Source: Seonamhaeicola sp. (GTDB lineage: Bacteria > Bacteroidota > Bacteroidia > Flavobacteriales > Flavobacteriaceae). Taken from it: a stretch of 64,000 nucleotides of DNA. The stretch's first letter is position 1, and every line of letters begins with the position of its first letter. Below the pieces are notes generated by a model. The model made no database searches. It was not told the DNA's origin and saw nothing but the letters and a program-made list of their open reading frames with translations. The stretch lies in contig NZ_JANQJQ010000030.1 of assembly GCF_028281565.1 (NCBI RefSeq), positions 248,001 through 312,000 of the forward strand. The letters run 5' to 3'. Made by a program: the position numbers and the translations under genes. Of the stretch, positions 33,356 through 55,488 are shown one piece after another.

Positions 33356-33367
33356 AATCAATTAAAT

Positions 33368-39456: not shown

Positions 39457-40089
39457 ATGCTATACAAGAACATATTTAAAAGAGTAATTGACTTTTTTCT
39501 CTCAATAATAGGAATGTTGATCCTTTCCCCTGCTTTCTTGGTCATATACCTAGTTCTTTATTTTTCAAATGACAAAAAGGTATTTTTTTACCAGATTAGA
39601 CCCGGATTAAATGACAAGCTTTTTAAAATAATCAAGTTCAAAACAATGAATGACAAAAAAGATGAAAACGGTATATTATTACCGGATATTAAAAGGGTCA
39701 CAAAGTTTGGTAAAATTTTAAGAAAAACATCATTAGATGAAATACCTCAGCTAATTAATGTTTTTAGAGGCGATATGAGTTTAGTTGGCCCAAGACCCTT
39801 ATTACCTCAATACTTGCCTTACTATACAGAACGGGAAAAACTTAGGCATACTGTCCGCCCGGGTATAACAGGCTATTCTCAAGTTAATGGCAGAAATAAT
39901 CTGCCATGGGATGAGAGATTAGAAATGGATGCGCAATACACCGAAAAAATATCACTGATTTTTGATATTAAAATTTTATTCAAAACTGTTCTTAAAGTTA
40001 TAAAGAGAAAAGATGTGGTAATTTTGTCAAGCGAATTCAATACAACAACTTTAGATTATTACAGATCACAAAATGAAAATGCTAATTAA
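39457..40089 (+). CDS. PglC-like undecaprenyl-phosphate phosphoglycosyl transferase
   Basis: 210 residues. Re-entrant N-terminal helix (about 9-33), FYQIRPGLNDKLFKIIKFKTMND, catalytic Asp-Glu in SLDEIPQLIN, GDMSLVGPRPLLPQYLPYY and HTVRPGITGYSQVNGRNNLPW. The pattern is closer to Campylobacter PglC than to the WcaJ-like protein at 9949, pointing to a bacillosamine-like phosphosugar. The dehydratase and aminotransferase for such a donor are at 18030 and 19979. It overlaps the following GNAT by 17 nt. Confidence 0.92.
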   Translation: MLYKNIFKRVIDFFLSIIGMLILSPAFLVIYLVLYFSNDKKVFFYQIRPGLNDKLFKIIKFKTMNDKKDENGILLPDIKRVTKFGKILRKTSLDEIPQLINVFRGDMSLVGPRPLLPQYLPYYTEREKLRHTVRPGITGYSQVNGRNNLPWDERLEMDAQYTEKISLIFDIKILFKTVLKVIKRKDVVILSSEFNTTTLDYYRSQNENAN

Positions 40090-40615
40090 ATATTTTTCAA
40101 AAGAACATATAAATGCCCGTGTTAATTTAATTAATAATCCTTTAGTTAATAACAGTATGTTTTTCAATTTACCGGCTACTATAGAAGAAACTACTAAATG
40201 GTTTAACAACAAAAATAATGCTGTAAGAGTAGATTTAACATTTTTAAACAACAACAACGAGATTGTGGCCATGGGGGGAATCACAAATATAAGCCTAACA
40301 GACAGGATGGGAGAATTATATGTATTTGTGGACCCTGTTTTTCACGGAAAAGGAATAGGATCAAAAGCAACAAAGTGGATTGTAAATTATGGGTTTTTAA
40401 AACTCAACCTAAATAAAATATACTTGTCGACCAACGACGATAATATTGCCGCTTATAAAATTTATGAAAATTTAGGTTTTAAGCTAGAAGGATTACTAAG
40501 AAGTCATAAATGGAAAAATAACCGTTTTGTAGACAGAAAATTTTATGGCCTTTTAAAATCCGAATGGGAACATCAAGATTATAAAGAACAAAAAGTAAAT
40601 TACATTCTCACATAA
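40073..40615 (+). CDS. RimJ/RimL-type GNAT acetyltransferase
   Basis: 180 residues. ATG at 40073; an in-frame ATG at 40079 is also possible. Acetyltransf_3-type fold with GGITNISLTDRMGELYVFVDP, acetyl-CoA loop GKGIGSKATKWIV and NIAAYKIYENLGF. In amino-sugar loci such enzymes acetylate the 4-amino group (as PseH-type enzymes do), which would complete a diNAc sugar from the DegT product, since no PglD hexapeptide acetyltransferase is present. Overlaps the PglC-like gene by 17 nt. Confidence 0.85.
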   Translation: MKMLIKYFSKEHINARVNLINNPLVNNSMFFNLPATIEETTKWFNNKNNAVRVDLTFLNNNNEIVAMGGITNISLTDRMGELYVFVDPVFHGKGIGSKATKWIVNYGFLKLNLNKIYLSTNDDNIAAYKIYENLGFKLEGLLRSHKWKNNRFVDRKFYGLLKSEWEHQDYKEQKVNYILT

Positions 40616-40647: not shown

Positions 40648-42717
40648 ATGAATATTTTATTTACTTGTGCAGGAAGACGCAATTATTTAATCAACTACTT
40701 TAAAGAAGCTTTAAATGGCGATGGAAAGGTTATAGCTGTAGACCAAAGTACTTTAGCACCTGCATTGGTTGATGCCGATATAGCTATTGAGGTCCCCGAT
40801 ATATATAAGAAAAAATATTTAAAAACAATCCTGAAAATAGCTAAATCAAACTCGGTTGCTGCCATCATATCTTTAAATGATTTAGAATTGCCAATTCTAT
40901 CAAAAAACAAATCACTTTTTGAAAAGGAAGGCATAAAAGTTATTGTGTCAAATGAAATGGTTATAGATATTGGATTTGACAAGTTAAAGACCTTTAATTA
41001 TTTTAACAGTTTAGGTTTAAAAACCCCAAAGACTTTTACAAAAATTGAAGAGGCTAAACAAGCGATCAAATCTGGAGCTTTGAAATTTCCTGTAGTTTTA
41101 AAACCTCGCTGGGGAAGTGCTTCCATTGGAATTGATTTCCCTGAAACGATTGAGGAGCTTGAGCTATCCTTTAAACTACAAAAAATAAAAATCACTAAAT
41201 CGATATTGGGATTAGTTAGCAGTGAAGACATTGAAAATTCAATTTTAATTCAAGAAAAAGTTGATGGAAAGGAGTTTGGTTTAGATGTTGTGAATGATTT
41301 TGACGGGATGTACTTTGGTACTTTTGCCAGAGAGAAGTTATCCATGCGATCTGGTGAAACAGACAAGGCAATATCAGTTATTGACCCCCGCTTGGAAAAA
41401 CTTGGAGAGAAACTGGGAAAGGCCTTGAAGCATATAGGAAATATGGATTGTGATGCCTTTGTAACTAAAGATGATGTACATATATTAGAAATAAATCCAA
41501 GGTTTGGAGGTGGTTATCCGTTTTCTCATGAGGCAGGAGTGAATTTAGCCTCTATATATTTAGGATGGCTGAGAGGAGAAACAAATGAAAATCTTGCAAA
41601 GTTTAATAATTATAAAGAAGGGATAATTTTTTCAAAATGTGACAGGTTAATAGAAATTGGAAAACCTGAGGACTCAACCAAAAACTTAATTGAAGAAATA
41701 ACCCAAAAAGAAAAATGGGATGAACTGTTAGGAGAAATAGGTAGTTATGATTTTTATCATACCTACGATTATCACATGCTAGCAAGGAAAGACAATGAAA
41801 TACCGGTAATTCTTAAATATACTGAAAACGATGTTATTATAGCCTTACCCATACTTATTAGAGAAATTCCGGGAACAAAATATAAAGACGCTACCTCCGT
41901 TTATGGGTACGCCGGACCAATTAATAAAGGAATTAATGGTAATTTTAATAATAAACACTTTATAAAAAGTTTAATAGGCTATTTTAAAGAAAAAAATATT
42001 GTATCTGTTTTTTCAAGATTAAACCCATTTATTTTAGGGCAGGATAAAACCTTAATCAATTTAGGAAATTTAGTAAATCAGGGAAAAGTAGTTAATATTG
42101 ATCTAAAATTGGATTTAGATGTTCAGAAACAACATATTCAAAAACGTTTAAAAACGAACATCAATAGATTAAGAAAGCTTTGTTCAATTAAAAAGGCTAG
42201 TAATCAGGAAGGTCTGAAACAGTTCATTGAGATTTACTATGATAATTTAAATCGCGTAAACGCTACAAGATTTTATTATTTTAATTCGTTGTACTTTCAA
42301 AAATTACTATCTACCAATGATTTCAAATCTGAAATATTATTGGCTGTGGATAATGAAACAGGAGAAACAATTGGAGGGTGTTTATTTGTATTCACAAATT
42401 CAATTGTCCAATATCATTTATCTGGTGTTAAGAAAGCTTTTTTACATAAAAATCCAACAAAGCTATTAATTGATGAAATGAGAATTATTGCCACAGAGAA
42501 AGGGTACAAATACTTTAACCTAGGAGGTGGTTTAGGAGGACGGGATAATGATTCTCTGTTTCGTTTTAAATCATTATTTTCTAGTAATTATAGAGAATTC
42601 AAACTTTGGGAACTTATTATAAACCAGGAGGTGTATGACGAATTGGTTAAACAAAACAATATTACCGAAGGCTCCAGTTTTTTTCCACTATACAGGCTTA
42701 ACGAAAAGAACGCTTAG
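40648..42717 (+). CDS. ATP-grasp ligase fused to FemAB-like GNAT domain
   Basis: 689 residues with two enzymatic halves. N-terminal pre-ATP-grasp MNILFTCAGRRNYLI, then ATP-grasp (about 110-310) with FPVVLKPRWGSASIGID (K152), IQEKVDGKEFGLDV and the metal-binding EINPRFGGGYPFSHEAG (280-296). The C-terminal half (about 350-689) is FemAB/Acetyltransf_6-like: YHTYDYHMLA, KTNINRLRKL, NLGGGLGGRDNDSLFRFKSLF. ATP-grasp would activate a carboxylate and the FemAB half could transfer an aminoacyl or acyl group. Separate genes are usual; the fusion is notable. Followed 2 nt later by the first GNAT paralogue. Confidence 0.88.
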   Translation: MNILFTCAGRRNYLINYFKEALNGDGKVIAVDQSTLAPALVDADIAIEVPDIYKKKYLKTILKIAKSNSVAAIISLNDLELPILSKNKSLFEKEGIKVIVSNEMVIDIGFDKLKTFNYFNSLGLKTPKTFTKIEEAKQAIKSGALKFPVVLKPRWGSASIGIDFPETIEELELSFKLQKIKITKSILGLVSSEDIENSILIQEKVDGKEFGLDVVNDFDGMYFGTFAREKLSMRSGETDKAISVIDPRLEKLGEKLGKALKHIGNMDCDAFVTKDDVHILEINPRFGGGYPFSHEAGVNLASIYLGWLRGETNENLAKFNNYKEGIIFSKCDRLIEIGKPEDSTKNLIEEITQKEKWDELLGEIGSYDFYHTYDYHMLARKDNEIPVILKYTENDVIIALPILIREIPGTKYKDATSVYGYAGPINKGINGNFNNKHFIKSLIGYFKEKNIVSVFSRLNPFILGQDKTLINLGNLVNQGKVVNIDLKLDLDVQKQHIQKRLKTNINRLRKLCSIKKASNQEGLKQFIEIYYDNLNRVNATRFYYFNSLYFQKLLSTNDFKSEILLAVDNETGETIGGCLFVFTNSIVQYHLSGVKKAFLHKNPTKLLIDEMRIIATEKGYKYFNLGGGLGGRDNDSLFRFKSLFSSNYREFKLWELIINQEVYDELVKQNNITEGSSFFPLYRLNEKNA

Positions 42718-42719
42718 CC

Positions 42720-43976
42720 ATGCTAATCAACAACCCTTTTACTTCAGGAATTTTTACAAGTGTATGGAGAACACATTTCGCTAAAAGAAAACCTTCTGAG
42801 ACTTACGGCATTTTTAACGATGTTTCGTTCGTTAAGTATAGCTTATGGCCCATTTTAATAAATACGGGAAAGAACCTAACCAAAGGAATAGCCTACACCA
42901 TTAATTCAACAGAAACAGAAACAAATACAATTAAAAACAAAGTATTTTTAATTTTAGATGTAGCCTCCTATTTTGATGTACCGCGTATCAATTGGTCTAC
43001 ACCTTTAAGGCAAAAAAGGATTAAGCAATACCCGGGATATCTCATAAATTTAAAAAACTACGAAGATTTTTCGTCATACCTCTCCTCTACATTTAGTAAA
43101 AAAAGCATTCAAAAATTCAACAGATACAGGAGAAGGCTGGAACAATGTTTCGATATCACCTATAAAATCTATCATGGCGAGATAGATAAGGCCAACTATG
43201 ATTTTATCTTTGATAGTTTTAAAAACTTGCTTGTTAAAAGATTTGATGATAAAAGAATAACAAATAACAATCTTAACCCTGAAGAATGGAATTTTTATAA
43301 AGATGTTGCCTACCCACTTATTCTTGAAAAGAAAGCATCCCTATTTGTAGTTTACAATGGGGAAACACCTATAGCGGTAAGATTGAACTACTACTCTGAC
43401 ACGGTTATTTTTGACGCAATTACCGTTTTTGACATAGACTACGACAAATTTCATTTAGGTAAAATATCACTCTATAACATGCTAGTTTGGGCCTTTGATA
43501 CAGACTACAGTATATTTGATTTCTCAAAAGGTTATTTTGATTATAAAGAAAGTTGGAGTGATACCAAGTATGATTTCGAATACCATATAGTTTATAATTC
43601 GAAATCCCTTATAGCCAATCTAATTGCTAATGGTGTTTCATCACTTTACAAATTGAAGCAATATTTAAGAGAGAAAGCCATTAACAAAAAAATGCATCGG
43701 TTAACATTTATTCTTAAGAAAACACCAAAAAAACAAAAGTTTTCCCGTTTTAAAGCAAGTGAAAACAATGAAGAATTTAACATCAATGTATTAAGCGAAA
43801 TAAATATTTCCGATCAACATTATGCATTCATAAAAAAGTATGTATACGATTTTTTATATCTTAAAAGCGAGCATTATAAAAATCTGAAAATTTATAAACT
43901 TCCTGATTCCAAAAATCGCTCCTTTTTAGTTAAAGGTAGCACTGCCTCAGTAATTTTATCAGAAGTAAATAAATAA
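42720..43976 (+). CDS. CelD/FemAB-like GNAT paralogue 1 with C-terminal module
   Basis: 418 residues. Acetyltransf_6-type GNAT: block 1 YRRRLEQCF (136-144) with YKIYHGEI; block 2 KRFDDKR...W190; block 3 KKASLFVVYNGETPIAVRLNYY (204-225); block 4 FDIDYDKFHLGKISLY...FDFSKGYFDYKESWS (237-280). The last matches the DxxxGxxxYKxxW acyl-CoA/acceptor core. A separate C-terminal module (about 370-418) ends YDFLYLKSEHYKNLKIYKL. It is the most divergent of six paralogues, with RLNYY where the others have SLNxH, and is detached from them by the inverted cupin gene. Substrate unknown. Confidence 0.85.
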   Translation: MLINNPFTSGIFTSVWRTHFAKRKPSETYGIFNDVSFVKYSLWPILINTGKNLTKGIAYTINSTETETNTIKNKVFLILDVASYFDVPRINWSTPLRQKRIKQYPGYLINLKNYEDFSSYLSSTFSKKSIQKFNRYRRRLEQCFDITYKIYHGEIDKANYDFIFDSFKNLLVKRFDDKRITNNNLNPEEWNFYKDVAYPLILEKKASLFVVYNGETPIAVRLNYYSDTVIFDAITVFDIDYDKFHLGKISLYNMLVWAFDTDYSIFDFSKGYFDYKESWSDTKYDFEYHIVYNSKSLIANLIANGVSSLYKLKQYLREKAINKKMHRLTFILKKTPKKQKFSRFKASENNEEFNINVLSEINISDQHYAFIKKYVYDFLYLKSEHYKNLKIYKLPDSKNRSFLVKGSTASVILSEVNK

Positions 43977-44024
43977 AACTTTAGCAAACAATAGGTATCA
44001 ATAGTCCAAATTAATGAACTAAGG

Positions 44025-44891
44025 TCAACTTCTACCCAACCAAATTCGCTTACCCTCCACTGTTTTATGACAAGTACAATCTTGTGTTCTATAATAACCA
44101 CGCATATGCAGCCTATATTCCACAAATTCCTTATAATACGTAAAATCTTTTTTATAGCGCCCAAAGTTACTCACACTGATTGAAGTATCAAGAGACTTTA
44201 CATAATGCCACCATTTCCGTGGATTATAAAGTGTATCACCGGGTTCCAGTATAACCTTGTAAACAACGGCGTCTCTAAACTTTGGAAATTTAGCTTCATC
44301 AAAATTATTGATATCAACCATACTGCCATGAGCATCATAATCATACTTTTTACTCTCGTACATTTTGGAACTGTCCTTTGGTGCAACCAGAAGAACTAAT
44401 TTGCGTCCTTTAACCTGAGTCAGTATATTGTCAGTTGAATCCCAGTGAAATCCAGTCACTGTTCCCGCAGGACCTATCCATCCTCCAGGTGTATTGTACT
44501 TGGTATAATCTGATAAAATGGATAAATCAACATCCTTAAACAACTCCGGGAAATGACCAAAAATATTAAACATTGACAGATAGGGTCTTTCACTTTCTGG
44601 TTTCTCCTCGTAATCTTTTAGTTTTTTTAAATAAGTACTGAAGTCAAACCGTTCTACATTAATTTCATTTTGAATCACATTGCCTACTTCAACCCGAACG
44701 CTCTCTTCCAGTTTTAAACCTGATAAAAATTCAAAATCCCATTTTTTTAAAGCGGGCCAATTTTTAGCATATCCCTTCAATAAAACCGGTTTTCGTTTCT
44801 TGATGAAATTTTTATGAAATAATTTGTGATCAAATTCCTTGCTTTCCTCTAAAGGAATAGCGCTTTTAACGATATCATCTAAAATATCCAT
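44025..44891 (-). CDS. JmjC/cupin-8 hydroxylase-like protein, copy 1 (inverted)
   Basis: 288 residues from ATG 44891, matching the MDILxDI start of its paralogue at 51125; the frame stays open upstream to 44927. Fe(II)/2-oxoglutarate facial triad H149-x-D151 in GFHWDS and H229 in KWWHYVKS. VLLKGYAKNWPALKKWDF and GWIGPAGT are FIH-like. A C-terminal CTC motif (C272, C274) is conserved in the paralogue (C269, C271, C272). A protein or peptide hydroxylase or demethylase fold; substrate unknown. Reads against the surrounding GNAT genes. Confidence 0.85.
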   Translation of the reverse strand: MDILDDIVKSAIPLEESKEFDHKLFHKNFIKKRKPVLLKGYAKNWPALKKWDFEFLSGLKLEESVRVEVGNVIQNEINVERFDFSTYLKKLKDYEEKPESERPYLSMFNIFGHFPELFKDVDLSILSDYTKYNTPGGWIGPAGTVTGFHWDSTDNILTQVKGRKLVLLVAPKDSSKMYESKKYDYDAHGSMVDINNFDEAKFPKFRDAVVYKVILEPGDTLYNPRKWWHYVKSLDTSISVSNFGRYKKDFTYYKEFVEYRLHMRGYYRTQDCTCHKTVEGKRIWLGRS

Positions 44892-45174
44892 AAGTATATA
44901 GGTTAGGTAATTAATAGTTGACGACAATATACATATGATATATATATGTTTAAAAAAAAGGCGGTAAAAAAACAGCTTATCACGTTAAATTACATTATCA
45001 TGGGAATAGCCAAAATTACTCAAATTAATATACTATTTGGTTCAGGGCATCAATCTGTTCGTTTACCAAGAATTACTGGCCTTTTGTCTATTAAAAAAAA
45101 TAATCGTGCTTAAAATATTTAATTTAGAAGCTGTAAAACCCAAAATCTTTAACTTAAACCTTAACCAAAAGCAA

Positions 45175-46377
45175 TTGAAAACACTTGTTAACGTTGTACA
45201 TTATAGCTTAAATTTCTTTCAAAAAAGAAGCTTACCAGACATTTACCGGGATATTTCAATTGAATGGAGTCAATACAGGGAATCGGCTGTAAACTTCAAA
45301 GCAGAAGATTCAATCAAGAATCGAGGCTTAGTTAGAATTTATCGTATACCACCTTATTTTAAACTAGAGCTAAACAATCAGTATTACAGGAAGTTCGGGT
45401 TGAAGGAGATTGATAAAGGTTATTTAATTGATCTTACATCATACAACACAATTGACGACTATACGATTGATCAACTCAGTTCCAGAAAACGCAAACAAAT
45501 GCGCTCTGCAATTAACAGGTTGGAAAGTTGCCTGGATATCTCATATAAATTCTATTTTGGAAACATCGCTCCTGAAACTTACAATAAACTTATGGATCGG
45601 GCTAAGGTATTTGCTTCCGAAAGGTTTAATCAGGTAAACAAAAGGCATCATCATCTTGGTATATGGAAAAATTTAAAACAAAGGTTTTACGATTTGATCC
45701 TAGAGAAAAAAGCTTCCATATTTGTGATTTATGATGGCGAGAATCCAATCGACATATGTTTGAATTATCATTTAAAGGGTGTAACCTGTAATATATTTAC
45801 GAGCTTTGACATTAACTATTCGAAATTTGGTTTAGGCTCTATCGATCTGTACAAACAATTGGAATGGAACATCAATAACAATTATAGCATATTTGATATG
45901 TGCATGGGTGAATCCAATTATAAAAAAACCTGGAGTAATACCCCTTACGAACTAAAGCACCATGTTATAATTAAAAAAGGCTCCTGGTTAAGTCATTTAA
46001 TAGCAATTCCCTTATTAGTTTATTTAAAACTCAGATTTAAACTGTACCGATATTCCTATGAGAATCCAAATAACTGGATTTTAAAACGTCTGGGGTTATC
46101 CAGTAGTGATTTGGATAAAACGACAAAATCGATCGAAACTGACAAAGCACCATTTGAATTAATGGAGCATGAGGTTTTTAAGATTAAGCTTGACAGAACA
46201 CAAGAATTAGATATGACCTCGGATGAAAATCTGTTTTTGAAGAAATCATATTTAGACTATTTACATCGCCAAAAGGTACACAAGAATGGCACTAAAGCTT
46301 ATCAATCATTGGATAATAAGGACACTTACTACATTAAAAGTGCCAACAATATTTTAGAAATAAATGTAAAACGGTAA
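45175..46377 (+). CDS. CelD/FemAB-like GNAT paralogue 2 with C-terminal module
   Basis: 400 residues if started at TTG 45175. The frame is open from 45037, and GTG 45106 is an alternative. Start 45175 puts LPDIY at residue 20, aligned with LPTHI of paralogue 3; no ATG exists near. The four family blocks are present: RKQMRSAINRLESCLDISYKFYFG, SERFNQVNKR, KKASIFVIYDGENPIDICLNYH, and FDINYSKFGLGSIDLY...DMCMGESNYKKTWS. The C-terminal module ends near LDYLHRQKVHK. First gene of the five-gene tandem run. The degenerate start beside the inverted cupin gene suggests rearrangement damage. Confidence 0.82.
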   Translation: MKTLVNVVHYSLNFFQKRSLPDIYRDISIEWSQYRESAVNFKAEDSIKNRGLVRIYRIPPYFKLELNNQYYRKFGLKEIDKGYLIDLTSYNTIDDYTIDQLSSRKRKQMRSAINRLESCLDISYKFYFGNIAPETYNKLMDRAKVFASERFNQVNKRHHHLGIWKNLKQRFYDLILEKKASIFVIYDGENPIDICLNYHLKGVTCNIFTSFDINYSKFGLGSIDLYKQLEWNINNNYSIFDMCMGESNYKKTWSNTPYELKHHVIIKKGSWLSHLIAIPLLVYLKLRFKLYRYSYENPNNWILKRLGLSSSDLDKTTKSIETDKAPFELMEHEVFKIKLDRTQELDMTSDENLFLKKSYLDYLHRQKVHKNGTKAYQSLDNKDTYYIKSANNILEINVKR

Positions 46378-46390
46378 TTTTAACTATAAC

Positions 46391-47539
46391 ATGTCCTATT
46401 TAATACATAAAAGGAATATTTATAAAGCACTTTTTGAAGAGCAAGAGCTTCCAACCCATATTCGGAAAGTAGCTTTTAATACCACTGATGTTAGCTTACC
46501 TAATTTAAATAGGTACCAAGATAAGATTGGCGTTTTTAATTTATATCCGGATTATTTGAAGTTAACTACCCCGGATGGTTACCATAGTAGTTTTATCTAC
46601 CAAAAGCCTGGGTTTGCAATTAATCTTAAGCCTTTTGATTCTTTCGAAGGTTTTGTGAAACAACTGAAACCCAACTTTAGAAAAGTTGTAAGAAGATCGG
46701 TAAAACGCTTAGAATCATGTTTCAATATTTCCTATCAGATGTATTATGGTGATATAGATAAAACTACCTATAATCTATTAATGGAACGCCTTATTGATAT
46801 GATAGAACAGCGGTTTTCCCAACGTGAAGGAAGAAATCGTGTTTTGGAGGAATGGGACTACTATCATGGTTTTGCTTATGCTAATATTTTGAACAAAAAA
46901 GCCTCATTATTTGTAATTTACAACGAAAATGAACCTATAGAGATATCGCTTAATTTTCATCTGGGAAACATGATGTATAGTTCTATTTCTTCGTACGACC
47001 TCGATTATGGAAAATTTAGTCTTGGAAATATTGAGATATTCATGCAATTGGAATGGTGTTTCAATAATGATATTATTTTGTTCGATATGGGTTATGGAGA
47101 TTTTGATTACAAGAGACGGTGGAGTAATCTAACCTATCAGTTCAAGACACTGATCATCTCAAAAAAGAACAATTTTATTTCCAAGACAGTCTGTTTTTGG
47201 AACCTCTTGAAATTTAAGACGATTAACTATTTAATAGCAAAGAAACTAAATAACAGATATAATAGCCTTTTAGGTTTTTTAAAAGGTAAAAAGGAAACGA
47301 AAGTAGAGACTGAGTATACCCTGAGCCCTATTGATGAGCTTCCGGAAGATGTCCGCCCAATAGATTTTAAAAGCTTTGAAAATCCGTCGTTAAAAAAGCC
47401 GATCTACGACTTTTTATATAGTAATTCTGAATTTGTCGACAAGGTAAAAGCCTATTCGATTCTTAGTGATACCAATAGCTTCATCATTGAAGGCAGTAAG
47501 ATTAACTCAAAAATAACATTTGAAAATGCCTCAAATTAA
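46391..47539 (+). CDS. CelD/FemAB-like GNAT paralogue 3 with C-terminal module
   Basis: 382 residues, ATG 13 nt after paralogue 2. Blocks: KRLESCFNISYQMYYGDI (105-122), EQRFSQREGRNRVLEEWDYY (139-158), KKASLFVIYNENEPIEISLNFH (169-190), SYDLDYGKFSLGNIEIF and FDMGYGDFDYKRRWSN (200-246). The C-terminal module has KPIYDFLYSNSEFVDKVKAY and FIIEGSK. No signal peptide or membrane helix, so probably cytoplasmic. The next gene starts within its last 14 nt. Confidence 0.87.
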   Translation: MSYLIHKRNIYKALFEEQELPTHIRKVAFNTTDVSLPNLNRYQDKIGVFNLYPDYLKLTTPDGYHSSFIYQKPGFAINLKPFDSFEGFVKQLKPNFRKVVRRSVKRLESCFNISYQMYYGDIDKTTYNLLMERLIDMIEQRFSQREGRNRVLEEWDYYHGFAYANILNKKASLFVIYNENEPIEISLNFHLGNMMYSSISSYDLDYGKFSLGNIEIFMQLEWCFNNDIILFDMGYGDFDYKRRWSNLTYQFKTLIISKKNNFISKTVCFWNLLKFKTINYLIAKKLNNRYNSLLGFLKGKKETKVETEYTLSPIDELPEDVRPIDFKSFENPSLKKPIYDFLYSNSEFVDKVKAYSILSDTNSFIIEGSKINSKITFENASN

Positions 47540-48671
47540 ACGTTATCAATTTTTATGGAATTATTTTAAAAGAAGCCAGGGCATTATCCCTGATTGCTAT
47601 GCTAATCTCTATTTTAATGATAAGACCTTTTCAAACAAGCGTTCCAGGAATCAATTGGATGCTGTAAACTATATTAGCCTGTTCCCCAATTTTTTCCGGG
47701 CTGAATTGACCAAAGAAGCGTATAAACTTATCAAGGTTCCCCATTATGGTATGGATGGCTTAGGGATTTTACTTAATAAAGACTACACTTACGATAGTTA
47801 TAAAAATGAACATATTAAGAAGTCGTTTTTAAAGGGGTTTAGACGCTCTCTAAGAAGGCTTGAAACCTGTTTAAATATTAGATACGAATATAATTATGGT
47901 AGTATTTCTGAAGAGAAATTAAAGCTTATTCTAAGTCACCTATATACAATGCTGAATGTCAGGTTTAAGGAAAAAGACACGAACAGTGTTTTTATGGACG
48001 AATGGGATATAAACACAGAAAATCTTAAGCAATTAATTGAACAAAAAAGATCGTCTTTATTTGTTGTCTACCATAATGATGATCCTATTAGCATATCTAT
48101 TAACAGGCATGTTAATAATGATATTTTTCTTAGTGAATGTCATGCTTATGATACAGATTTCAGTAAGTTCGGTTTAGGGCATATCGATAATTATATGCTA
48201 CTGAATTGGAGTATAGACAACAAGGTATATTTTTTAGATCTAGGCCTGGGAAGCGCAAGTTACAAAAACAAATGGTGCAATTTTGACTATAATTTAGAGT
48301 ATCAAATCTATTATAAGAAAGGCATGATTTCGGCCAGGCTCGTGGCCAATTTTGAAGCCCTTAAAATCCATATTAAAAATAGGATAAAAAAGCTAAAACT
48401 TGATGAAGCCGCTTCCAGGTTAAAAAAAAGAAGTCCTAATGACAAGCCAGTTGCTTACACAACAGAGGCTATCAGCCTTGATGAAGCAGTCCGTAAAACT
48501 AAGAGCTTAAATTGTCTTAACAATTATGAGTCCGGCAAACTTACCAGAAGAATGGTAGTAGATTTTGTTTATACCTATGAAGAACATTTAGACAAGGTTT
48601 CCGCATTTAAAGTACATGAAAATTTATTTGTAATTAAAGGAGAAAAAAAGGCCATAGAGATTAAATTTTGA
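47526..48671 (+). CDS. CelD/FemAB-like GNAT paralogue 4 with C-terminal module
   Basis: 381 residues from ATG 47526 (MPQIKRYQFLWNYF); a TTG at 47520 is possible but unneeded. Blocks: RRLETCLNIRYEYNYGSI, NVRFKEKDTNSVFMDEWD, KRSSLFVVYHNDDPISISINRH, and HAYDTDFSKFGLGHIDNY...LDLGLGSASYKNKWCN. The usual acidic GD of the core is replaced by GSAS. The C-terminal module VVDFVYTYEEHLDKVSAFKV...FVIKGEKK closes the protein. Overlaps paralogue 3 by 14 nt and lies 1 nt before paralogue 5. Confidence 0.87.
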   Translation: MPQIKRYQFLWNYFKRSQGIIPDCYANLYFNDKTFSNKRSRNQLDAVNYISLFPNFFRAELTKEAYKLIKVPHYGMDGLGILLNKDYTYDSYKNEHIKKSFLKGFRRSLRRLETCLNIRYEYNYGSISEEKLKLILSHLYTMLNVRFKEKDTNSVFMDEWDINTENLKQLIEQKRSSLFVVYHNDDPISISINRHVNNDIFLSECHAYDTDFSKFGLGHIDNYMLLNWSIDNKVYFLDLGLGSASYKNKWCNFDYNLEYQIYYKKGMISARLVANFEALKIHIKNRIKKLKLDEAASRLKKRSPNDKPVAYTTEAISLDEAVRKTKSLNCLNNYESGKLTRRMVVDFVYTYEEHLDKVSAFKVHENLFVIKGEKKAIEIKF

Positions 48672-48672
48672 T

Positions 48673-49857
48673 ATGAACAGACGTAACGGGTTATTTACTT
48701 TAGATTTTTATGGTTCTTTTTTTCTTAAAAATGCCATTCCTCCTATCTATGAGTCTATAGATTATACCCATAATAATAAGCCTTTTTACGAAAAACCGGA
48801 AAAAAATAGTCAGGAAAAAGAAAGCCTGGTATATTACAACAAATTGTTCCCTAAATACATTAATCCTACAAAAATATCTGATGATTATAAACTCAAAAAG
48901 CTGGAGCAATCCAAATTAGACGGTTTTGGAATCAATATCACAGGGACCGATAGCATTGAAACCTATTTAACCAATAACATTAAACCCAGTTCCAGATCTC
49001 CAATAAAAAGAAAAATTAAGAGGTTGGAATTATGTTTTAAAATTCGGAGCGAATTCTATTTTGGAAAGAATTTATCTAAAGAAACATTCAACAATGTTAT
49101 ACCGGAATTAAAGCGACTGTTGGAACGCAGATTTGCCCAAAGAAACGACAGAAATGAGGCTTTGGAAAACTGGGATAATTATGTTTCGGAAACGTATCAA
49201 AGGATTCGCAATAAAGAAGCAATGCTTTATGTAATGTATGCCAATGATACCGTTATTGGCATATCGCTCAATTTTAGCATTAAAGCTATTTTAATAGGGC
49301 ACATTATTGCCTATGATATCGATTATGCCAAATTTGGCCTGGGTAATACCATAGTTTATAAAATATTGGAATGGTGCATTGCTAACAATTATAGCATACT
49401 AGATATGGGTAACGGAGAGATGGAATATAAATCTATCTGGTGTAATGCCATCTATCAATACGACTATCATTTTGTTTATAAAAAAAAATCACTCCCGGCC
49501 TATATAATCGCATATATCCAAATAGTAAAAATGAAGTTTAAAAACTTCTTAAAAGTTATCAAGTTCGACCTGGTGTTCAAAACAATTAAAAACAAAATCC
49601 AGGGAAGGAAACCACCAGTCTATGCAGTAGCACAACAATTCAAACTAGAGAAAATACCGCCTGATACTAAAGTCCCGGAAAAGTCCGTTAAGTTAGATTT
49701 TTTCCATGCTGACACTAATCACATAAGAAAATGGATTGTCGATTTTGTATTTCTGTCAAAAGAATCTTTGGAGTATATTGGTGTCTACAAACTTTCTGAA
49801 AGCCATTTTTTGATCAAAGGGCGGAACAATGCCGGACAAATAACGCTTGAGCATTAA
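48673..49857 (+). CDS. CelD/FemAB-like GNAT paralogue 5 with C-terminal module
   Basis: 394 residues, ATG one base after the preceding stop. Blocks: KRLELCFKIRSEFYFG-like (RLELC where others have RLESC), ERRFAQRNDRNEALENWDNY, KEAMLYVMYANDTVIGISLNFS (His replaced by Ser), and AYDIDYAKFGLGNTIVY...LDMGNGEMEYKSIWCN. The C-terminal module has IVDFVFLSKESLEYIGVYKL and FLIKGRNN. These changes at conserved positions suggest a different acceptor from paralogues 3 and 6. Confidence 0.87.
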   Translation: MNRRNGLFTLDFYGSFFLKNAIPPIYESIDYTHNNKPFYEKPEKNSQEKESLVYYNKLFPKYINPTKISDDYKLKKLEQSKLDGFGINITGTDSIETYLTNNIKPSSRSPIKRKIKRLELCFKIRSEFYFGKNLSKETFNNVIPELKRLLERRFAQRNDRNEALENWDNYVSETYQRIRNKEAMLYVMYANDTVIGISLNFSIKAILIGHIIAYDIDYAKFGLGNTIVYKILEWCIANNYSILDMGNGEMEYKSIWCNAIYQYDYHFVYKKKSLPAYIIAYIQIVKMKFKNFLKVIKFDLVFKTIKNKIQGRKPPVYAVAQQFKLEKIPPDTKVPEKSVKLDFFHADTNHIRKWIVDFVFLSKESLEYIGVYKLSESHFLIKGRNNAGQITLEH

Positions 49858-49869
49858 ATATGAATTGGA

Positions 49870-51036
49870 ATGGTAGATAAACTTGATTTCTATAATACGC
49901 TCACCGAAAGGCATAAAGTACTTAGTCTTTACAGCAAACTAGAACTAAATACCTCTGCAAGATGTTTAAGTTTTGAACGAAACGAAGAAGTAGAATTCAG
50001 CAAAAATAAAGCTGTTTCTGTAAAGTTATTTCCTTCTTACTTATCTCCTGCTTTTAAGAACGAACCTGAACTAAACATCCTTAAAATACCTCAAAGTAAG
50101 ATTAACGGATATGCTGTGGTTATTAATGAGAAAACTGATATTCAGAGTTTTTTAAAGGACCAATACAGCAAAAGCTTCAAGCAAAATATTAACCGGTTTG
50201 TAAACAGATTGGAAAGCTGCTTTAATATTCAGTACAAAATGTACTATGGCAGTATTACTTCAGATGATTATCAAAAATACATGTTGATGCTACACGACAT
50301 GCTGGTAACTCGATTTAAGCAACGTAATGAAAAGAATGATATACTGGAAAACTGGCCTTTTTATCTCGATAGCACTTACGATTTAATTAATTCTAAAAAA
50401 GCGTCCCTGTTTGTTATTTACAGTGATAACACCCCTATTCATATATGTGTTAACCACCATTTCGACAAACTTTTTTTTGTGTCAATCCCCTCGTTTGATT
50501 TAGATTACACCAAATTTGCCCTCGGTAATATTTCTATATATAAACTATTGGAGTGGGCTCTTGATAATGACTATAATCTGTTAGATATGGCCTATGGTGA
50601 TTTGGAATACAAACGGCGTTGGAGCACTTTAATTTACAAGTTTGATCATCATATTGTCTATCCGAAAAATATTTTTAAAGTAGGTGTTTTGGCTAAAATT
50701 GAGTATAACATCATAGCCTTTAAAAATGTCTTAAAAAAATATAGGGTGGATAAAAAAGTGAAGCAATTAAAATCCTTGGTTCGGGGAAAAAAGGCGCAAT
50801 TAAGACTATCAACCTATTCTACAATAGACAATATAGATTTAAGCCAATTGAAACAATTAACCCCTGTGGATATGAATTCCGAAGAAGGATGTATGCTTAA
50901 AAGGCCCTTATTTGATTTCCTTTTTAAACAGAAGGAACATATTTCGAACATCAACCTATTCAAGAATGAATCTGATAATGAATACGTTATAATTGGAAAA
51001 AATGCCAATCAAAAAATCAGTATTCAAAACACCTAA
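49870..51036 (+). CDS. CelD/FemAB-like GNAT paralogue 6 with C-terminal module
   Basis: 388 residues, ATG 12 nt after paralogue 5. Blocks: NRFVNRLESCFNIQYKMYYGSI, VTRFKQRNEKNDILENWPFY, KKASLFVIYSDNTPIHICVNHH, and SFDLDYTKFALGNISIY...LDMAYGDLEYKRRWST. It is closest in motif to paralogue 3. The C-terminal module has RPLFDFLFKQKEHISNINLF and YVIIGKNA. Last of the tandem run; the second cupin-8 gene follows after 88 nt. Confidence 0.87.
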   Translation: MVDKLDFYNTLTERHKVLSLYSKLELNTSARCLSFERNEEVEFSKNKAVSVKLFPSYLSPAFKNEPELNILKIPQSKINGYAVVINEKTDIQSFLKDQYSKSFKQNINRFVNRLESCFNIQYKMYYGSITSDDYQKYMLMLHDMLVTRFKQRNEKNDILENWPFYLDSTYDLINSKKASLFVIYSDNTPIHICVNHHFDKLFFVSIPSFDLDYTKFALGNISIYKLLEWALDNDYNLLDMAYGDLEYKRRWSTLIYKFDHHIVYPKNIFKVGVLAKIEYNIIAFKNVLKKYRVDKKVKQLKSLVRGKKAQLRLSTYSTIDNIDLSQLKQLTPVDMNSEEGCMLKRPLFDFLFKQKEHISNINLFKNESDNEYVIIGKNANQKISIQNT

Positions 51037-51124
51037 AACCTAAAAACTTACGATTTATCGATTTTAATATCTTAAAAAGAAAATTTACAGGATATTTATA
51101 GTCCAAATTTAAAACCTTGCTTAA

Positions 51125-51946
51125 ATGGATATTTTAAACGACATATTAGAGCGTAGTAAAGCCATTGAAGAACTTAACGATATTGATCCCAAGATCTTTA
51201 AATCTAAATATTTTAACAAAAAGCCTGTAGTTTTAAGAGGTTTTGCCAAAGATTGGGGAGCCACCAAGAAATGGGATTTTGATTTCTTGTTAAATCTGGA
51301 ATCTGATAAAGATATCGATCTGTTATCCGGTAATTTTATTCAGGATGATAACCGATATAAAAAATCTTCGTTTAAAGATTATATACAGAAACTAAAAGAT
51401 GCTGAGATTAACAAAGATAATTTCAAAGACTACCTGACAACCTTAGATATCTTTAAAACTTATCCTCACCTTAAAGAGGATATCGATTTTTCCATATTTG
51501 AAGGCCTTAATGCAGTTAATGATGTTACCGCGTGGATAGGTCCCGCAGGAACAATTTCGGGTTTTCATGCCGATACCGGAAAAAATATGTATGCTCAGGT
51601 CAAAGGACGAAAGATGTTTATTTTGGCCTCTACCAAATTCAACAGTAAAATGTATCCCAGCAGCAAATATATAAATGGTGCTGTTGCCAGTAAGGTAAAT
51701 ATCAACGACATTATTCCGGAGGACTTTCCAAAGTTAAACGATGTTGAGTTTATTAAGGTCATTTTGGAACCCGGCGATGTACTTCATGTACCGTCAAAAT
51801 GGTGGCATTATGTGCAATCTCTTGATACATCAATTAGTATTAGCGATTTCGGTTTTTCAAAATTTGAAATGTTCAGTATAAAAGCAATAGATTATCTGCA
51901 TCGTAGAGGCTATTATAAATCTAAAAATTGCTTCTGCTGTAATTAA
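51125..51946 (+). CDS. JmjC/cupin-8 hydroxylase-like protein, copy 2
   Basis: 273 residues, clearly paralogous to the gene at 44025. Shared features are MDILNDI, PVVLRGFAKDWGATKKWDFDF, WIGPAGTISGFHAD (H148, D150), ILEPGDVLHVPSKWWHYVQSLDTSIS (H228) and a cysteine-ended tail FCCN (C269, C271, C272). The facial triad predicts Fe(II)/2OG chemistry; the second position after His is Ala here and Trp in copy 1. Same strand as the GNAT array. Possible targets are an array product, a peptide or a protein (inference). Confidence 0.87.
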   Translation: MDILNDILERSKAIEELNDIDPKIFKSKYFNKKPVVLRGFAKDWGATKKWDFDFLLNLESDKDIDLLSGNFIQDDNRYKKSSFKDYIQKLKDAEINKDNFKDYLTTLDIFKTYPHLKEDIDFSIFEGLNAVNDVTAWIGPAGTISGFHADTGKNMYAQVKGRKMFILASTKFNSKMYPSSKYINGAVASKVNINDIIPEDFPKLNDVEFIKVILEPGDVLHVPSKWWHYVQSLDTSISISDFGFSKFEMFSIKAIDYLHRRGYYKSKNCFCCN

Positions 51947-51971: not shown

Positions 51972-52484
51972 ATGAACCTCCTGAAAAAGTGGTATAAACA
52001 TCTTATTGTTTTTGTTGTTCTGGCTCCCAACCTATTCGTTGTGGCGTTTGGTATTGAAAGCTTTCCGTTTACTTGTGCTCCTATGTTTGGTCATTATATT
52101 GACAACAATACCAATTTGTATATATTTAAATTTGAAGGTGTCAGGAAGGGGATCAAAACGGATCTATCTAATTATTATAACAAGCCTGAGGATTGCTTTA
52201 TAAGGCACTTTTTTAGTAAAGTGTATGGTTCTGCAGAGGCTATCTCTCCTTTCACACACAAATTAACCGAAAGCCCCGAGGCCTTCAACCAAAGAATGAA
52301 TGCCTTTTTTGAGGACTATACAGCGTTCCTTAAAAAAGAACACCAAATGACTTTCGACAGAATTGACATTTCAGTTAAGTCTGTTGATCAGAACAGAAAC
52401 GTTTTAATGGATTATAAAATCTTAGGGAGTTTTATAAGTTCTAACAGCAGTTATGTGTCAGTCTATAAGCCTAAAAATAAATAA
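51972..52484 (+). CDS. Small membrane-anchored protein, HTTM-associated type
   Basis: 170 residues. N-terminal transmembrane segment (about 11-28), then FPFTCAPMFGHYIDNNTNLYIFKFEG and a soluble domain. The PMFG...LY motif matches RMFGKIDKMLY of the protein at 33368, and again the gene directly precedes an HTTM-like gene (2-nt gap). The pair may form a complex. Function unknown. Confidence 0.68.
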   Translation: MNLLKKWYKHLIVFVVLAPNLFVVAFGIESFPFTCAPMFGHYIDNNTNLYIFKFEGVRKGIKTDLSNYYNKPEDCFIRHFFSKVYGSAEAISPFTHKLTESPEAFNQRMNAFFEDYTAFLKKEHQMTFDRIDISVKSVDQNRNVLMDYKILGSFISSNSSYVSVYKPKNK

Positions 52485-52486
52485 TA

Positions 52487-53536
52487 GTGGTAGCTTTAAC
52501 AAATAAACTAATACAATTAATTAGATACGTCCTTAGCTATCCCTTAAGCCTTATTAGGATTACTCTGCCGGTTTTTATAGGTAAAAAGGTTTATGGGAGT
52601 TCAAGTTATGAGTTTTATTTAGAGTTTAATTCAAGCTATATTAATGGCAAAACCTGGTTTCTGGAAATGTTACCAGACTTTGTTTTTAATTTAGATTATA
52701 GTCAATTCATTTTTTTCAAATACTTCCTAATTATTGTCATATTATGCTCAAGTATTGGTTTATTAGGAAGGCTAAATTTGTTGATTCTGGCAGGTTATTC
52801 ATATTTGCTTTTTGGTATAGGAGAAGGTTATGGTATTTTTGACCACCACACTTCGCTACCTGCCCAGGTACTTTTTGCCTTAGCCCTGGTACCGGGATCA
52901 ATGAAATTATCCGTAGATAATATCTTAGTGACTTTTATTAGGAAAAGAAAAAACCTATTTTCCTATAATCCCACTCCAAAATGGGGGTTTAACCTGGTAT
53001 TAGCTTTAGTAGCAGTAACCTATTTTACAGCAGGTCTGTCAAAAATCCGATATGGCGGATTAAAATGGATGGATGGTTCTACGTTAAGTTTCTATTTAAA
53101 AGAACGTACGGATAACTATGCAAAGCAAGGTGAGGCGCAATTGGTTATTGGAGATGCCACTATGCCTTCTAATAAAAAATGGAAGGATCCTTTTGGTTTT
53201 GTTGCCCACACCTATGGTAATTATCAAACTGTTAAAAGCAAAAATGCCATGGCAGACTATGTTGCTAATAACGGGTTCCTGGTTGCACTTTTATCTATTG
53301 GTAGTTTATTATTTGAACTATTGGCTTTCATTGTCTTCATTAATTCCAGATATAGAAACATGTTCTTGATTACAGCAATTCTGTTTCATCTATCAATTGG
53401 CGAACTTATGGGTATATCGTTTAGGCAGTATAGATTAATTTGTTTATTTTTAATAGACTGGAAACTAATTTTTGATACTGTTATTGGCATAGCGCAACAG
53501 AAAAAATTAAAATTGATCAGGGTTAGGTCGAACTAA
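52487..53536 (+). CDS. HTTM-like polytopic membrane protein
   Basis: 349 residues, GTG start 2 nt after the small partner gene; no ATG fits better. At least six to eight transmembrane helices. FTAGLSKIRYGGLKWMDGSTLSFYL and FRQYRLICLFLIDW are typical of the HTTM / vitamin-K-carboxylase-like membrane domain. A DHHTSLPAQVLFAL segment lies in the middle. Chemistry in bacteria is unproven. With 51972 it forms the second module of this type in the window. Confidence 0.75.
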   Translation: MVALTNKLIQLIRYVLSYPLSLIRITLPVFIGKKVYGSSSYEFYLEFNSSYINGKTWFLEMLPDFVFNLDYSQFIFFKYFLIIVILCSSIGLLGRLNLLILAGYSYLLFGIGEGYGIFDHHTSLPAQVLFALALVPGSMKLSVDNILVTFIRKRKNLFSYNPTPKWGFNLVLALVAVTYFTAGLSKIRYGGLKWMDGSTLSFYLKERTDNYAKQGEAQLVIGDATMPSNKKWKDPFGFVAHTYGNYQTVKSKNAMADYVANNGFLVALLSIGSLLFELLAFIVFINSRYRNMFLITAILFHLSIGELMGISFRQYRLICLFLIDWKLIFDTVIGIAQQKKLKLIRVRSN

Positions 53537-53549
53537 CTAATTAAGTACA

Positions 53550-54506
53550 ATGAAAAAATTAATTGTCAAGTCTATTATTTACAGTGTTTTGATTCTGTTA
53601 GCTTTAGAATTAATGGTTCGGGCTTTTCATCTATACCAACAGTACCCTCCCTATATTATAGACGATAAAAATGTTGAAGTAAATGCACCTAATCAAAACG
53701 GGTATTACGTAACCGGAAACCGGCGAATGAATTTTGCCGAATACTATATCAATAAATCCGGGTTTAATTCTTATCGTGAATTTGAGCCCACTGCCGATGG
53801 TATTGAGGTTGCTTTAATTGGCGATTCGTTTATTGAAGGGTTTCACCAAAACTATTATAACTCTACGGGAAGAAAAATTGAGAACCTACTGGAAGAAAAA
53901 GTCCAGGTCTATGAATATGGTTACTCCGGATATGACTTTGCTGACCAGGTGCATTTAATATCTGCTTATAAAGAACAATTTGAGCTAATTGATCATGTTA
54001 TTATTTATTTAAAATTTTATATGGATCTTGAAAGAGGCACTTATGAACCAAATCATTATAGGGTTGATCTACAGAATTCATTAAGCTTTAGACTACAGGA
54101 TAATATTAAACTAATTGCTTATGCAAAAGGCATCGGTGTTTTGCGTCCGTTTAGAAACTTAAAGGATAGAATTCTGGGTACTCAAAGAGTACATCGGGAA
54201 TATATTGATGATCACGCTTCTGAAGAAGACACCAAAAAGTATTTGGACAATTTTAAAACACTTGTAAAAACATATAATATTGATAAAACCAAAACAACAT
54301 TCTTGTTAGATGGTAAAAAAACAAGTCCCCTGTTTCTGGACTATTGCAATTCTAATGGATATAAGTATGTGGATTACGGACCAACTTTAGACAATTCCAA
54401 AACGCCTACAACACTTATTTATGATCAGCATTGGAATAATCATGGCAGGAATTTAATAGCTGAAGTTCTGGCAAAATATATTCGAAATCATTTATCAATT
54501 CAATAA
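53550..54506 (+). CDS. Membrane-anchored SGNH-hydrolase-like protein, copy 1
   Basis: 318 residues. N-terminal signal anchor (about 5-23), then GNRRMNFAEYYINKSGFNSYREF. Block I LIGDSFIEGF has nucleophile S93; block V YDQHWNNHGR has D292/H294. AlgJ/AlgX- and WcfL-like SGNH proteins with this topology act in the periplasm in glycan O-acetylation, with an MBOAT partner such as the one at 55498. Shares the same architecture with the convergent copy at 54529. Confidence 0.85.
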   Translation: MKKLIVKSIIYSVLILLALELMVRAFHLYQQYPPYIIDDKNVEVNAPNQNGYYVTGNRRMNFAEYYINKSGFNSYREFEPTADGIEVALIGDSFIEGFHQNYYNSTGRKIENLLEEKVQVYEYGYSGYDFADQVHLISAYKEQFELIDHVIIYLKFYMDLERGTYEPNHYRVDLQNSLSFRLQDNIKLIAYAKGIGVLRPFRNLKDRILGTQRVHREYIDDHASEEDTKKYLDNFKTLVKTYNIDKTKTTFLLDGKKTSPLFLDYCNSNGYKYVDYGPTLDNSKTPTTLIYDQHWNNHGRNLIAEVLAKYIRNHLSIQ

Positions 54507-54528: not shown

Positions 54529-55488
54529 TTATTTACCCTTTAACGCTTCTTGCTCTTTAACATAATTGGCTATTACTGTTGCTACCAGCGTTCTTCCTAA
54601 ATTGTTCCAATGTCTGTCATATATTAAATCTGTGGGTCTGGTAGCTTTTTCAAAAGATTCACCAAAGTCTAAATATTTGTATCCCATTTCATCACAATGA
54701 TCTAAAAAGAGTTTATTAGTCTTTCTTTTGTCAAACAAAAAAATAGTTTTTTCTTTATCAAATCCATAAGTCTTAACTAAACTTTTAAAGTTTTCCATAT
54801 ATTTAAGCTCTAGTTTTTTCTTGTCAACTTCAGGAGCCTTATAATTATGGTTTCCTTGAGTTAGTCTGCTTCTTATATCTCTAAAACCATCAAAAAGTCC
54901 AATGGCATTAGCATATTTGAGCACCCTTATATACCTCTTAATTTGAAATTTGAACGTATGTTTTAAGTTTACTAAATCATGATCCGGTTTTATTTTAGTT
55001 CTTCTTAAATCATTCTTAAACTTCATATAAATAAATATGTAGTCTATGAGTTCAAATTGTTCTTTATAAGAATTTATTATGTGAAGCTGATCCGCCATAT
55101 CATATCCTCCTCTTCCATATTCATAAACCTCTACTTCGTTATTTAGGATAACTTCAATTTTTTTGCCGGTTGAGTCGTAATAATGCTGATTAAAGCCTTC
55201 AATATAAGAATCTCCAATTAGTGCTACCTCAATTTTATCTGCTGAAGGAGTAAATTCTCTATAAGAGTTATAACCAAAACTATTTATATTAAACTCTGCA
55301 AAGTTTTGTCTTCTGTTACCTGTTACAGAAAATCCTCTTTGTCCCGGTTCAGTTTTTTGTATATCATATTCATCAATAAACAACAGTAAGGGAACATCGT
55401 TATATAAATGAAACATGCGTACTAAAATTTCCAATGCTAGTACAATTAGAAAAAAATATATGATGATATTTAAGAAGAACTTCTTCAA
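54529..55488 (-). CDS. Membrane-anchored SGNH-hydrolase-like protein, copy 2
   Basis: 319 residues, paralogue of 53550: signal anchor (about 6-24), TGNRRQNFAEFNINSFGYNSYREF, block I LIGDSYIEGF (S94), block V YDRHWNNLGR (D291/H293). It is 9 nt downstream of the MBOAT gene, so it is the operonic partner for acyl transfer. The two copies converge tail-to-tail with a 22-nt gap, as expected from an inverted duplication. Confidence 0.85.
   Translation of the reverse strand: MKKFFLNIIIYFFLIVLALEILVRMFHLYNDVPLLLFIDEYDIQKTEPGQRGFSVTGNRRQNFAEFNINSFGYNSYREFTPSADKIEVALIGDSYIEGFNQHYYDSTGKKIEVILNNEVEVYEYGRGGYDMADQLHIINSYKEQFELIDYIFIYMKFKNDLRRTKIKPDHDLVNLKHTFKFQIKRYIRVLKYANAIGLFDGFRDIRSRLTQGNHNYKAPEVDKKKLELKYMENFKSLVKTYGFDKEKTIFLFDKRKTNKLFLDHCDEMGYKYLDFGESFEKATRPTDLIYDRHWNNLGRTLVATVIANYVKEQEALKGK

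Follow-up and report, generated by a model that had tools for sequence, protein, structure and literature searches.

FemX, FemA and FemB are paralogous transferases that add residues in series, in a small number of steps, on peptidoglycan. Here we describe an array of six paralogous genes encoding FemX-like transferases in 64,000 nt of DNA from Seonamhaeicola sp. (the window, meaning this whole stretch), which is part of one of the 48 contigs of a 5.27 Mb genome. The fold of these proteins and the order of their genes across genomes point to a new, testable element: FemX-like transferases arranged as an ordered series whose first and last members are fixed, and which may act in a stepwise manner. 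The sections of PMC4431377 drawn on here describe linked peptide ligases as often catalyzing successive ligations, including those of O-antigen and teichuronopeptides, and FemX itself is described as a double GNAT protein in passages of PMC12945691. No description of such arrays was found among the matches listed in full-text literature searches, most subscription journals being outside their coverage.

An earlier note on this DNA, made by a model from the letters alone, had pointed to six paralogous CelD/FemAB-like genes with shared motif blocks. All six genes are present and intact, with open frames, and all six proteins belong to PF13480 (Acetyltransf_6, CelD/BcsL-like), scoring 30–51 bits against a Pfam cut-off of 22. 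The letters alpha to zeta refer to the phylogenetic classes described below, and the evidence used for each gene is given in brackets:

42720–43976, plus strand: alpha class PF13480 protein, 418 aa; first in arrays, its class also occurring in one-copy genomes (Pfam, tree, AlphaFold, Foldseek)
45175–46377, plus strand: beta class PF13480 protein, 400 aa from ATG, or 446 aa from TTG at 45037 (Pfam, tree)
46391–47539, plus strand: gamma class PF13480 protein, 382 aa (Pfam, tree)
47526–48671, plus strand: delta class PF13480 protein, 381 aa from ATG, with a TTG start at 47520 possible (Pfam, tree)
48673–49857, plus strand: epsilon class PF13480 protein, 394 aa (Pfam, tree)
49870–51036, plus strand: zeta class PF13480 protein, 388 aa; terminal member of all 12 non-redundant arrays with this class (Pfam, tree, AlphaFold, Foldseek)

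Searched against the genome at E 0.001, a profile built from these proteins recovers only the six themselves. The other array proteins are 27–36% identical to the 46391 protein, and most of the motif blocks named earlier lie among 31 invariant columns. Five of the genes are packed end to end; with ATG starts at 45175 and 47526, their coordinates give a 13 nt gap, a 14 nt overlap, a 1 nt gap, and a 12 nt gap, which reproduces the spacing first reported. The longest open reading frames (ORFs) of the beta and delta genes begin earlier, at the TTG codons listed.

Arrays of this type are widespread in one bacterial family. At E 1e-15, matches were found in 68 of 299 Flavobacteriaceae genomes, with three or more matches in 25 (at most six candidates were scored per genome). 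Within the genus Seonamhaeicola, four of seven genomes had a match: six genes in the genome of the window, five in another, and one in each of two more. Relatives with matches include Mariniflexile, Zobellia, Arenibacter, Maribacter, Cellulophaga, Tamlana, Flavivirga, and Allomuricauda. A sample of 395 genomes from across the phylum, in which the share of Flavobacteriaceae is not given, contained matches in five at the same threshold, all of them Flavobacteriaceae; a deeper profile at E 1e-6 found 13, the eight outside this family being weak (best 1e-12). Detailed comparisons used 45 regions (the window and regions picked for having matches) and 50 further loci, giving 95 regions, 84 of them non-redundant. 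In these, array genes form 44 runs of at least three, 34 of which are non-redundant at an 80% identity limit, and 23 of these 34 (those from the 45-region set, window included) represent 20 genera. The runs contain three to seven genes, with a median intergenic gap of 13 bp and gaps of 50 bp or less in 116 of 148 cases; in two arrays, fragments are among the members counted (119 aa in G015; 154 and 160 aa in G212). The array is thus neither specific to one strain nor decaying, so that this refuting outcome named in the earlier note did not occur. Some array members, such as those at L072:2799-5970 (G017) and L045:235-1161 (G209), are only ∼300–310 aa long and end before the C-terminal beta-rich part; they are either a genuine short form or truncated copies.

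The six copies of the window fall into separate classes that are common to several genera. In a first tree of 145 proteins, drawn from 164 matches (those of 330 aa or more that belonged to the retained gene set), class support was 91–100, and the nearest neighbor lay within the same genome for four proteins only, so that recent local amplification was rejected as the origin of the copies. In a larger tree, using 280 of 329 matches (at least 290 aa, <97% identity), gamma, which is a single clade in the smaller tree (support 91), is not one clade; the wide alpha clade has a support of 45 (alpha having 99 in the smaller tree), and one class of a second array type has 71. Two types of array can be recognized. 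Type I, to which the window belongs, runs alpha, (beta), gamma, delta, epsilon, zeta, with departures in G061 (delta before gamma) and in G134, L111, and G015 (beta late). In type II, alpha is followed by a class of mostly short proteins termed II2, one or two members of a third class, and then three further classes. The earlier note had drawn attention to divergence at key sites and suggested that each copy uses a different acceptor. Some of these sites are class markers: DFSKGYFDYK or a close variant occurs in 9/9 of the alpha set, DMGNG in 5/5 of the epsilon set, and, for zeta, DMAYG in at least 6/10 and NHH in at least 7/10. The beta class is variable at the second flagged site. As class-specific motifs are kept across genera, specialized functions are supported for several of the classes.

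The main new result concerns gene order. Among reciprocal best matches between the 34 arrays whose members are <80% identical to those of other arrays, order was concordant in 1935 of 2020 pairs and discordant in 85; 300 shuffles of array order gave a mean of 0.499 (sd 0.013, maximum 0.543). Concordance was also found for interior genes alone (457/486) and for the 23 arrays of the 45-region set (792/838). The ends of the arrays are fixed: alpha is first in 30 of the 31 arrays that hold it (the exception being G133), zeta is last in 12 of 12, and the terminal class of type II is last in 14 of 14, with II2 in second place in 14 of 16. To provide a control, single-copy genes outside the arrays were compared across the 45 regions, and kept their order in 2334 of 3011 pairs (0.775), or in 683 of 787 (0.868) when restricted to the 24 regions with three or more array genes, so that the arrays are more strongly ordered than their surroundings. 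These figures also bear on a different explanation, in which the order is a mere relic of an ancestral operon passed on whole, with copies that are redundant or in flux. It draws support from the order kept by the other locus genes (78–87% of pairs), from the shifting place of the beta class, and from the occurrence of short members and fragments. However, orthologs in different arrays are only 40.8% identical at the median (paralogs within arrays, 32.4%), and yet order is 96% concordant and the terminal classes stay put; motifs are kept within several classes across genera, and all six frames of the window are open. We therefore regard a mere relic as improbable.

Two of the six proteins, alpha (42720) and zeta (49870), were modeled by AlphaFold, and both models have the double-GNAT fold of FemABX proteins, as the earlier assignment to a GNAT family had led one to expect. 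The predicted local distance difference test (pLDDT) and predicted template modeling (pTM) scores were 93.2 and 0.91 for alpha, and 94.5 and 0.92 for zeta. The best 50 Foldseek matches in the PDB were considered for each model. Those for zeta include Weissella FemX (E 9e-8), 2hqy, MprF, 3frm, Sbb17, Sba18, lysyl- and alanyl-phosphatidylglycerol synthases (L-PGS/A-PGS), ATE1, and FemA; two of the leading matches, 2hqy from Bacteroides and 3frm from a staphylococcus, are proteins without known function. The alpha list is headed by MprF and FemX (FemX at E 1e-8), and its first entry titled as an N-acetyltransferase stands at rank 32. As judged from these models, the array proteins are nearest in fold to aminoacyl-tRNA-dependent transferases such as FemX and MprF. 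In an alignment based on the zeta structure, comprising the six window proteins and 95 of 124 listed ones, residues R148, G219, and K248 are invariant in all 101 proteins. Two basic stretches are positive in 101/101, which is compatible with the use of aminoacyl-tRNA, if not specific to it.

A second protein related to FemX is encoded directly upstream of the alpha gene, in an ORF that was absent from the gene set of the earlier note:

40648–42717, plus strand: fusion of a PylC-like/ATP-grasp ligase (∼residues 1–340) with a FemX-like protein (∼residues 341–689) (Pfam/NCBIfam, FemX profile match, neighborhood)

The FemX-like unit (∼349 aa), alone or as the C-terminal part of larger proteins, is present in 77 of the 95 regions (68 of 84 non-redundant), and in 48 of the 84 the next gene downstream of it belongs to the array family. 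Where three or more array genes occur, it is found in 33 of 39 regions and is adjacent in 19. The match of its profile to FemX (E 7e-9) is confined to profile positions 138–325, so that the first half of the unit is not recognizably FemX, and the invariant FK lysine of the unit aligns directly with Lys305 of FemX. The window protein scores 23.3 for PF02388 (cut-off 24), and three tested relatives score 28.6–36.4. Among the examples tested, fusion partners of the unit are a NeuD-type sugar acetyltransferase (L107), an FAD/NAD-binding domain (L150), and, in the window, ATP-grasp. These fusions, together with genes for an initiating sugar-phosphate transferase (Bac_transf), a DegT aminotransferase, and Polysacc_synt_2 proteins in the window, suggest that an amino sugar lies near the start of the pathway.

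The earlier note had also reported that the five contiguous genes are bracketed by paralogous genes of the type dependent on iron and 2-oxoglutarate (Fe/2OG). The packed run does lie between two such Cupin_8/JmjC genes, whose products are 45% identical, with the correction that the first is antisense to the array:

44025–44891, minus strand: Cupin_8 (JMJD5-like) predicted Fe/2OG hydroxylase between alpha and beta, antisense to the array (Cupin_8 E 3e-45)
51125–51946, plus strand: Cupin_8 (JMJD5-like) predicted Fe/2OG hydroxylase near zeta, a placement that recurs in other genera (Cupin_8 E 1e-37)

The 44025 protein aligns with JMJD5 over the HxD...H positions, which we take to be iron ligands, and these are kept in the 51125 protein. 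Of the 39 non-redundant regions with at least three array genes, 13 have relatives of the Cupin_8 genes, compared with 2 of the 44 that have fewer array genes (Fisher p 0.001). The corresponding figures are 8 of 15 for regions with the zeta class and 7 of 68 for those lacking it (p 0.0006); these p-values are rough, because flank lengths differ and regions are related. One JmjC gene therefore recurs with the larger arrays, and the 51125 gene fits the zeta-linked pattern. The twin arrangement is found only in the window among the regions studied, none of the others having two Cupin_8 genes or a counterpart of the 44025 gene at its place between alpha and beta. In G141, an antisense Cupin_8 gene is located 280 bp upstream of an alpha-class gene.

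The genes around the array encode flippase-type (Polysacc_synt) and EpsG-family proteins, glycosyltransferases, UDP-sugar enzymes, Poly_export and chain-length/kinase-type proteins, and the initiating sugar-phosphate transferase; by gene content, they look like an exopolysaccharide (EPS) locus of the Wzx/Wzy type, in agreement with the context suspected earlier. What has been computed comprises the fold, the paralogy, the classes, the conserved order, the EPS context, and the recurrent FemX-like protein. To account for these features together, we tentatively propose, at somewhat short of an even chance, that the array is a position-specific series of tRNA-dependent aminoacyl transferases that extend a peptide on an exopolysaccharide precursor. 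The double-GNAT, FemABX-like transferases would act one after another. The pathway would begin with the FemX-like part of the 40648 protein and the alpha protein, working on an exopolysaccharide amino sugar linked to a lipid or a nucleotide; beta to epsilon would then add one residue each, and zeta the last. The donor would most likely be aminoacyl-tRNA, as it is for FemX, FemA, and FemB, and class specificity, mirrored in gene order, would fix the order of residues. A residue of the product may be hydroxylated by the JmjC protein encoded beside zeta (51125), and the MBOAT and SGNH genes described below may serve to O-acylate the glycan. In its boldest form, which we consider rather unlikely, the proposal describes a peptide assembly line that needs neither ribosome nor template: a run of up to seven position-specific aminoacyl-tRNA transferases, its ends fixed, builds a defined oligopeptide on an exopolysaccharide precursor, the residues following the order of the genes.

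The enzymes might instead be acyl-CoA-dependent N- or O-acyltransferases, each decorating a different position of the EPS repeat without making a peptide, as HfsK may do on the Caulobacter holdfast. According to the portion of PMC5362036 consulted, HfsK has two GNAT domains, its closest solved homolog is FemX, it is needed for a proper holdfast, and it appears, on indirect grounds, to modify the holdfast. The class-specific motifs would fit different acceptors, and CoA-using double-GNAT folds appear in both Foldseek lists. We see this alternative as a serious one that is nonetheless unlikely: aminoacyl-tRNA enzymes lead both lists, with the first N-acetyltransferase title of the alpha list far below them, and independent decorations would leave the fixed ends of the arrays without a reason. 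The number of sugars is also relevant here. PF00534 and PF00535 glycosyltransferases were counted by hand within 30 kb on each side, from full listings except where a lower bound is given. Array-family genes and glycosyltransferases, respectively, number 5 and 5 in G301, 6 and 4 in G209, 7 and 5 in G061, 4 and 6 in G159, 8 and 4 in G240, and 8 and 5 in G070. Genomes with one array-family gene have 8 (G044), 5 (G302), at least 5 (G040 and G255), at least 6 (G080), and at least 0 (G157) glycosyltransferases. Array genes thus outnumber glycosyltransferases in four of the six array genomes, and with 4–6 glycosyltransferases beside 4–8 array genes in this small sample, array gene number does not track sugar number, to the extent that these two families reflect it.

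A number of results weigh against a series of aminoacyl-tRNA transferases. Array-family genes do not outnumber the counted glycosyltransferases in the other two array genomes. The CoA-using double-GNAT enzymes in the Foldseek lists include VipF, from rank 14 for zeta, and a clavulanic-acid tandem GNAT, from rank 33 for alpha. The TM-scores are modest (0.40–0.57 on FemX, 2hqy, and Sba18, and lower on FemA and ATE1), so that they indicate a fold and a tendency but do not establish a function. In a sequence search, no relative of the array profile turned up among PDB chains (best E 0.32), and none of the six array proteins matches PF02388, the FemABX family, or TIGR03019 (cut-off 260 bits); the 46391 protein has only weak matches, under the cut-offs, to FemAB_like and ATE_C. 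The profiles of the array and of the FemX-like protein do not align significantly (hhalign probability 0.3%), and the equivalence of K248 with Lys305 of FemX rests on the motif and a non-significant profile alignment; in any case, the YK lysine alone cannot separate a user of aminoacyl-tRNA from a user of CoA. The argument for tRNA binding from a basic surface is weak: the median isoelectric point (pI) of the array proteins is 9.4, beside 9.7, 9.5, and 9.2 for the neighboring Bac_transf, MBOAT, and GT4 proteins, and the FemX-like protein is not basic (pI 6.7–7.7). A search with ARAGORN for a dedicated tRNA found no tRNA gene in the window and 41 fetched loci. Finally, array order may in part be inherited through common descent of the operon.

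Further genes of the locus are as follows, clusters being counted over the 45 regions:

39457–40089, plus strand: initiating sugar-phosphate transferase (Bac_transf; Pfam); cluster in 36/45 regions
40073–40615, plus strand: single-domain GNAT (Acetyltransf_3; Pfam)
51972–52484, plus strand: 170-aa protein with no Pfam match over the cut-off, paired with 52487
52487–53536, plus strand: HTTM-like protein, 27.0 bits (Pfam cut-off 27.7), paired with 51972
53550–54506, plus strand: SGNH/AlgX-like protein, 19.7 bits (cut-off 26.5) (Pfam, cluster); cluster in 26/45 regions
54529–55488, minus strand: second protein of the 53550 cluster, with no Pfam match of its own
55498–56949, minus strand: MBOAT O-acyltransferase, 141 bits to the DltB model (cut-off 375) (profile match); cluster in 27/45 regions

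In some relatives, the place of the 40073 GNAT is taken by a hexapeptide-repeat protein that looks, by eye, like NeuD/PglD, and in others by a NeuD domain fused to the FemX-like protein. The pair of 170-aa and HTTM-like proteins occurs in five of the 95 regions, all five with zeta-type arrays.

The resemblance of the MBOAT protein to DltB bears on another possible donor, in which the transferases use amino acids or acyl groups held on a carrier protein, in a Dlt-like or nonribosomal peptide synthetase-like manner, and the MBOAT protein relocates or O-transfers them. Beside some arrays there are genes for an AMP-forming ligase (cluster in 9/45 regions) and an 81-aa carrier protein (7/45), both recognized by eye. 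The ligase and carrier clusters are absent from the window and from most regions, so that they cannot be a general donor system, and we consider a carrier-based donor quite improbable. A sugar-transfer-associated ATP-grasp protein (PF14397), like the adenylate-forming ligase-like and carrier-like proteins, recurs beside some arrays (L051:18484-19794, L073:4715-5758, and related regions); this cluster, like the other two, has no member in the window.

Several other genes of the window were noted. Those at 32951-34763 encode a set of DCC1-like, 158-aa, and 311-aa proteins with relatives in one other region (G120_C1), and the minus strand at 34844-36862 encodes a right-handed beta-helix protein whose cluster is found in 15/45 regions. 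At 38558-39430, within the EPS locus, lies a gene for a PALP-family enzyme dependent on pyridoxal phosphate; at E 1e-6, the ORFs of the other regions include no relative of it. An exosortase XrtX-like protein (117 bits, cut-off 170) and a 143-aa partner are encoded at 57508-58516. Relatives of XrtX, and likewise of its partner, were found in only three of the 95 regions (the window, G302, and L129), in a search that more divergent exosortases would escape, and an exosortase/PEP-CTERM system, to which the earlier note had linked the array, was set aside as a frame for the locus. The observation at the center of that note was confirmed, and is stronger than it was first put; its interpretation, partly supported, was right in outline, with the exosortase link dropped and the twin JmjC feature given less weight.

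If an ordered series of up to seven aminoacyl transferases does extend peptides on exopolysaccharide, defined peptides would be made there in a new way, and the products would form a new class of bacterial glycopeptide polymers. Conservation of gene order renders the idea of serial action directly testable, and the array family offers a large number of natural enzymes whose donor and acceptor specificities can be compared. The closest described systems are the FemABX proteins, exemplified by FemX of Weissella viridescens and FemX, FemA, and FemB of staphylococci. They share the double-GNAT fold and are the top structural neighbors of the array proteins, and FemX is matched at the sequence level by the FemX-like protein of the locus, in which Lys305 is conserved. 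In contrast to them, the array proteins lack PF02388, occur in an EPS locus rather than with peptidoglycan, and form an ordered run of three to seven specialized paralogs; the EPS context suggests an acceptor other than UDP-MurNAc-peptide or lipid II. HfsK of Caulobacter shares the two GNAT domains, the relationship to FemX, and a role in an EPS adhesin, whereas in the part of PMC5362036 consulted it is described as a single cyclic di-GMP effector, and its likeness to the array is one of description. The GNAT enzymes outside peptidoglycan covered by the passages of PMC12945691 are likewise FemX-like, with Sbb17 and Sba18 among the Foldseek matches of the array, but they make small-molecule products and are not described in those passages as ordered arrays. 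The TIGR03019 family (FemAB family, XrtA/PEP-CTERM-associated) is, by its name, a FemAB-like group of exosortase/EPS loci, and it is weakly matched by the FemX-like protein and two relatives (19–31 bits); it differs in that the array proteins themselves have no match to it and that genes like XrtX seldom accompany them.

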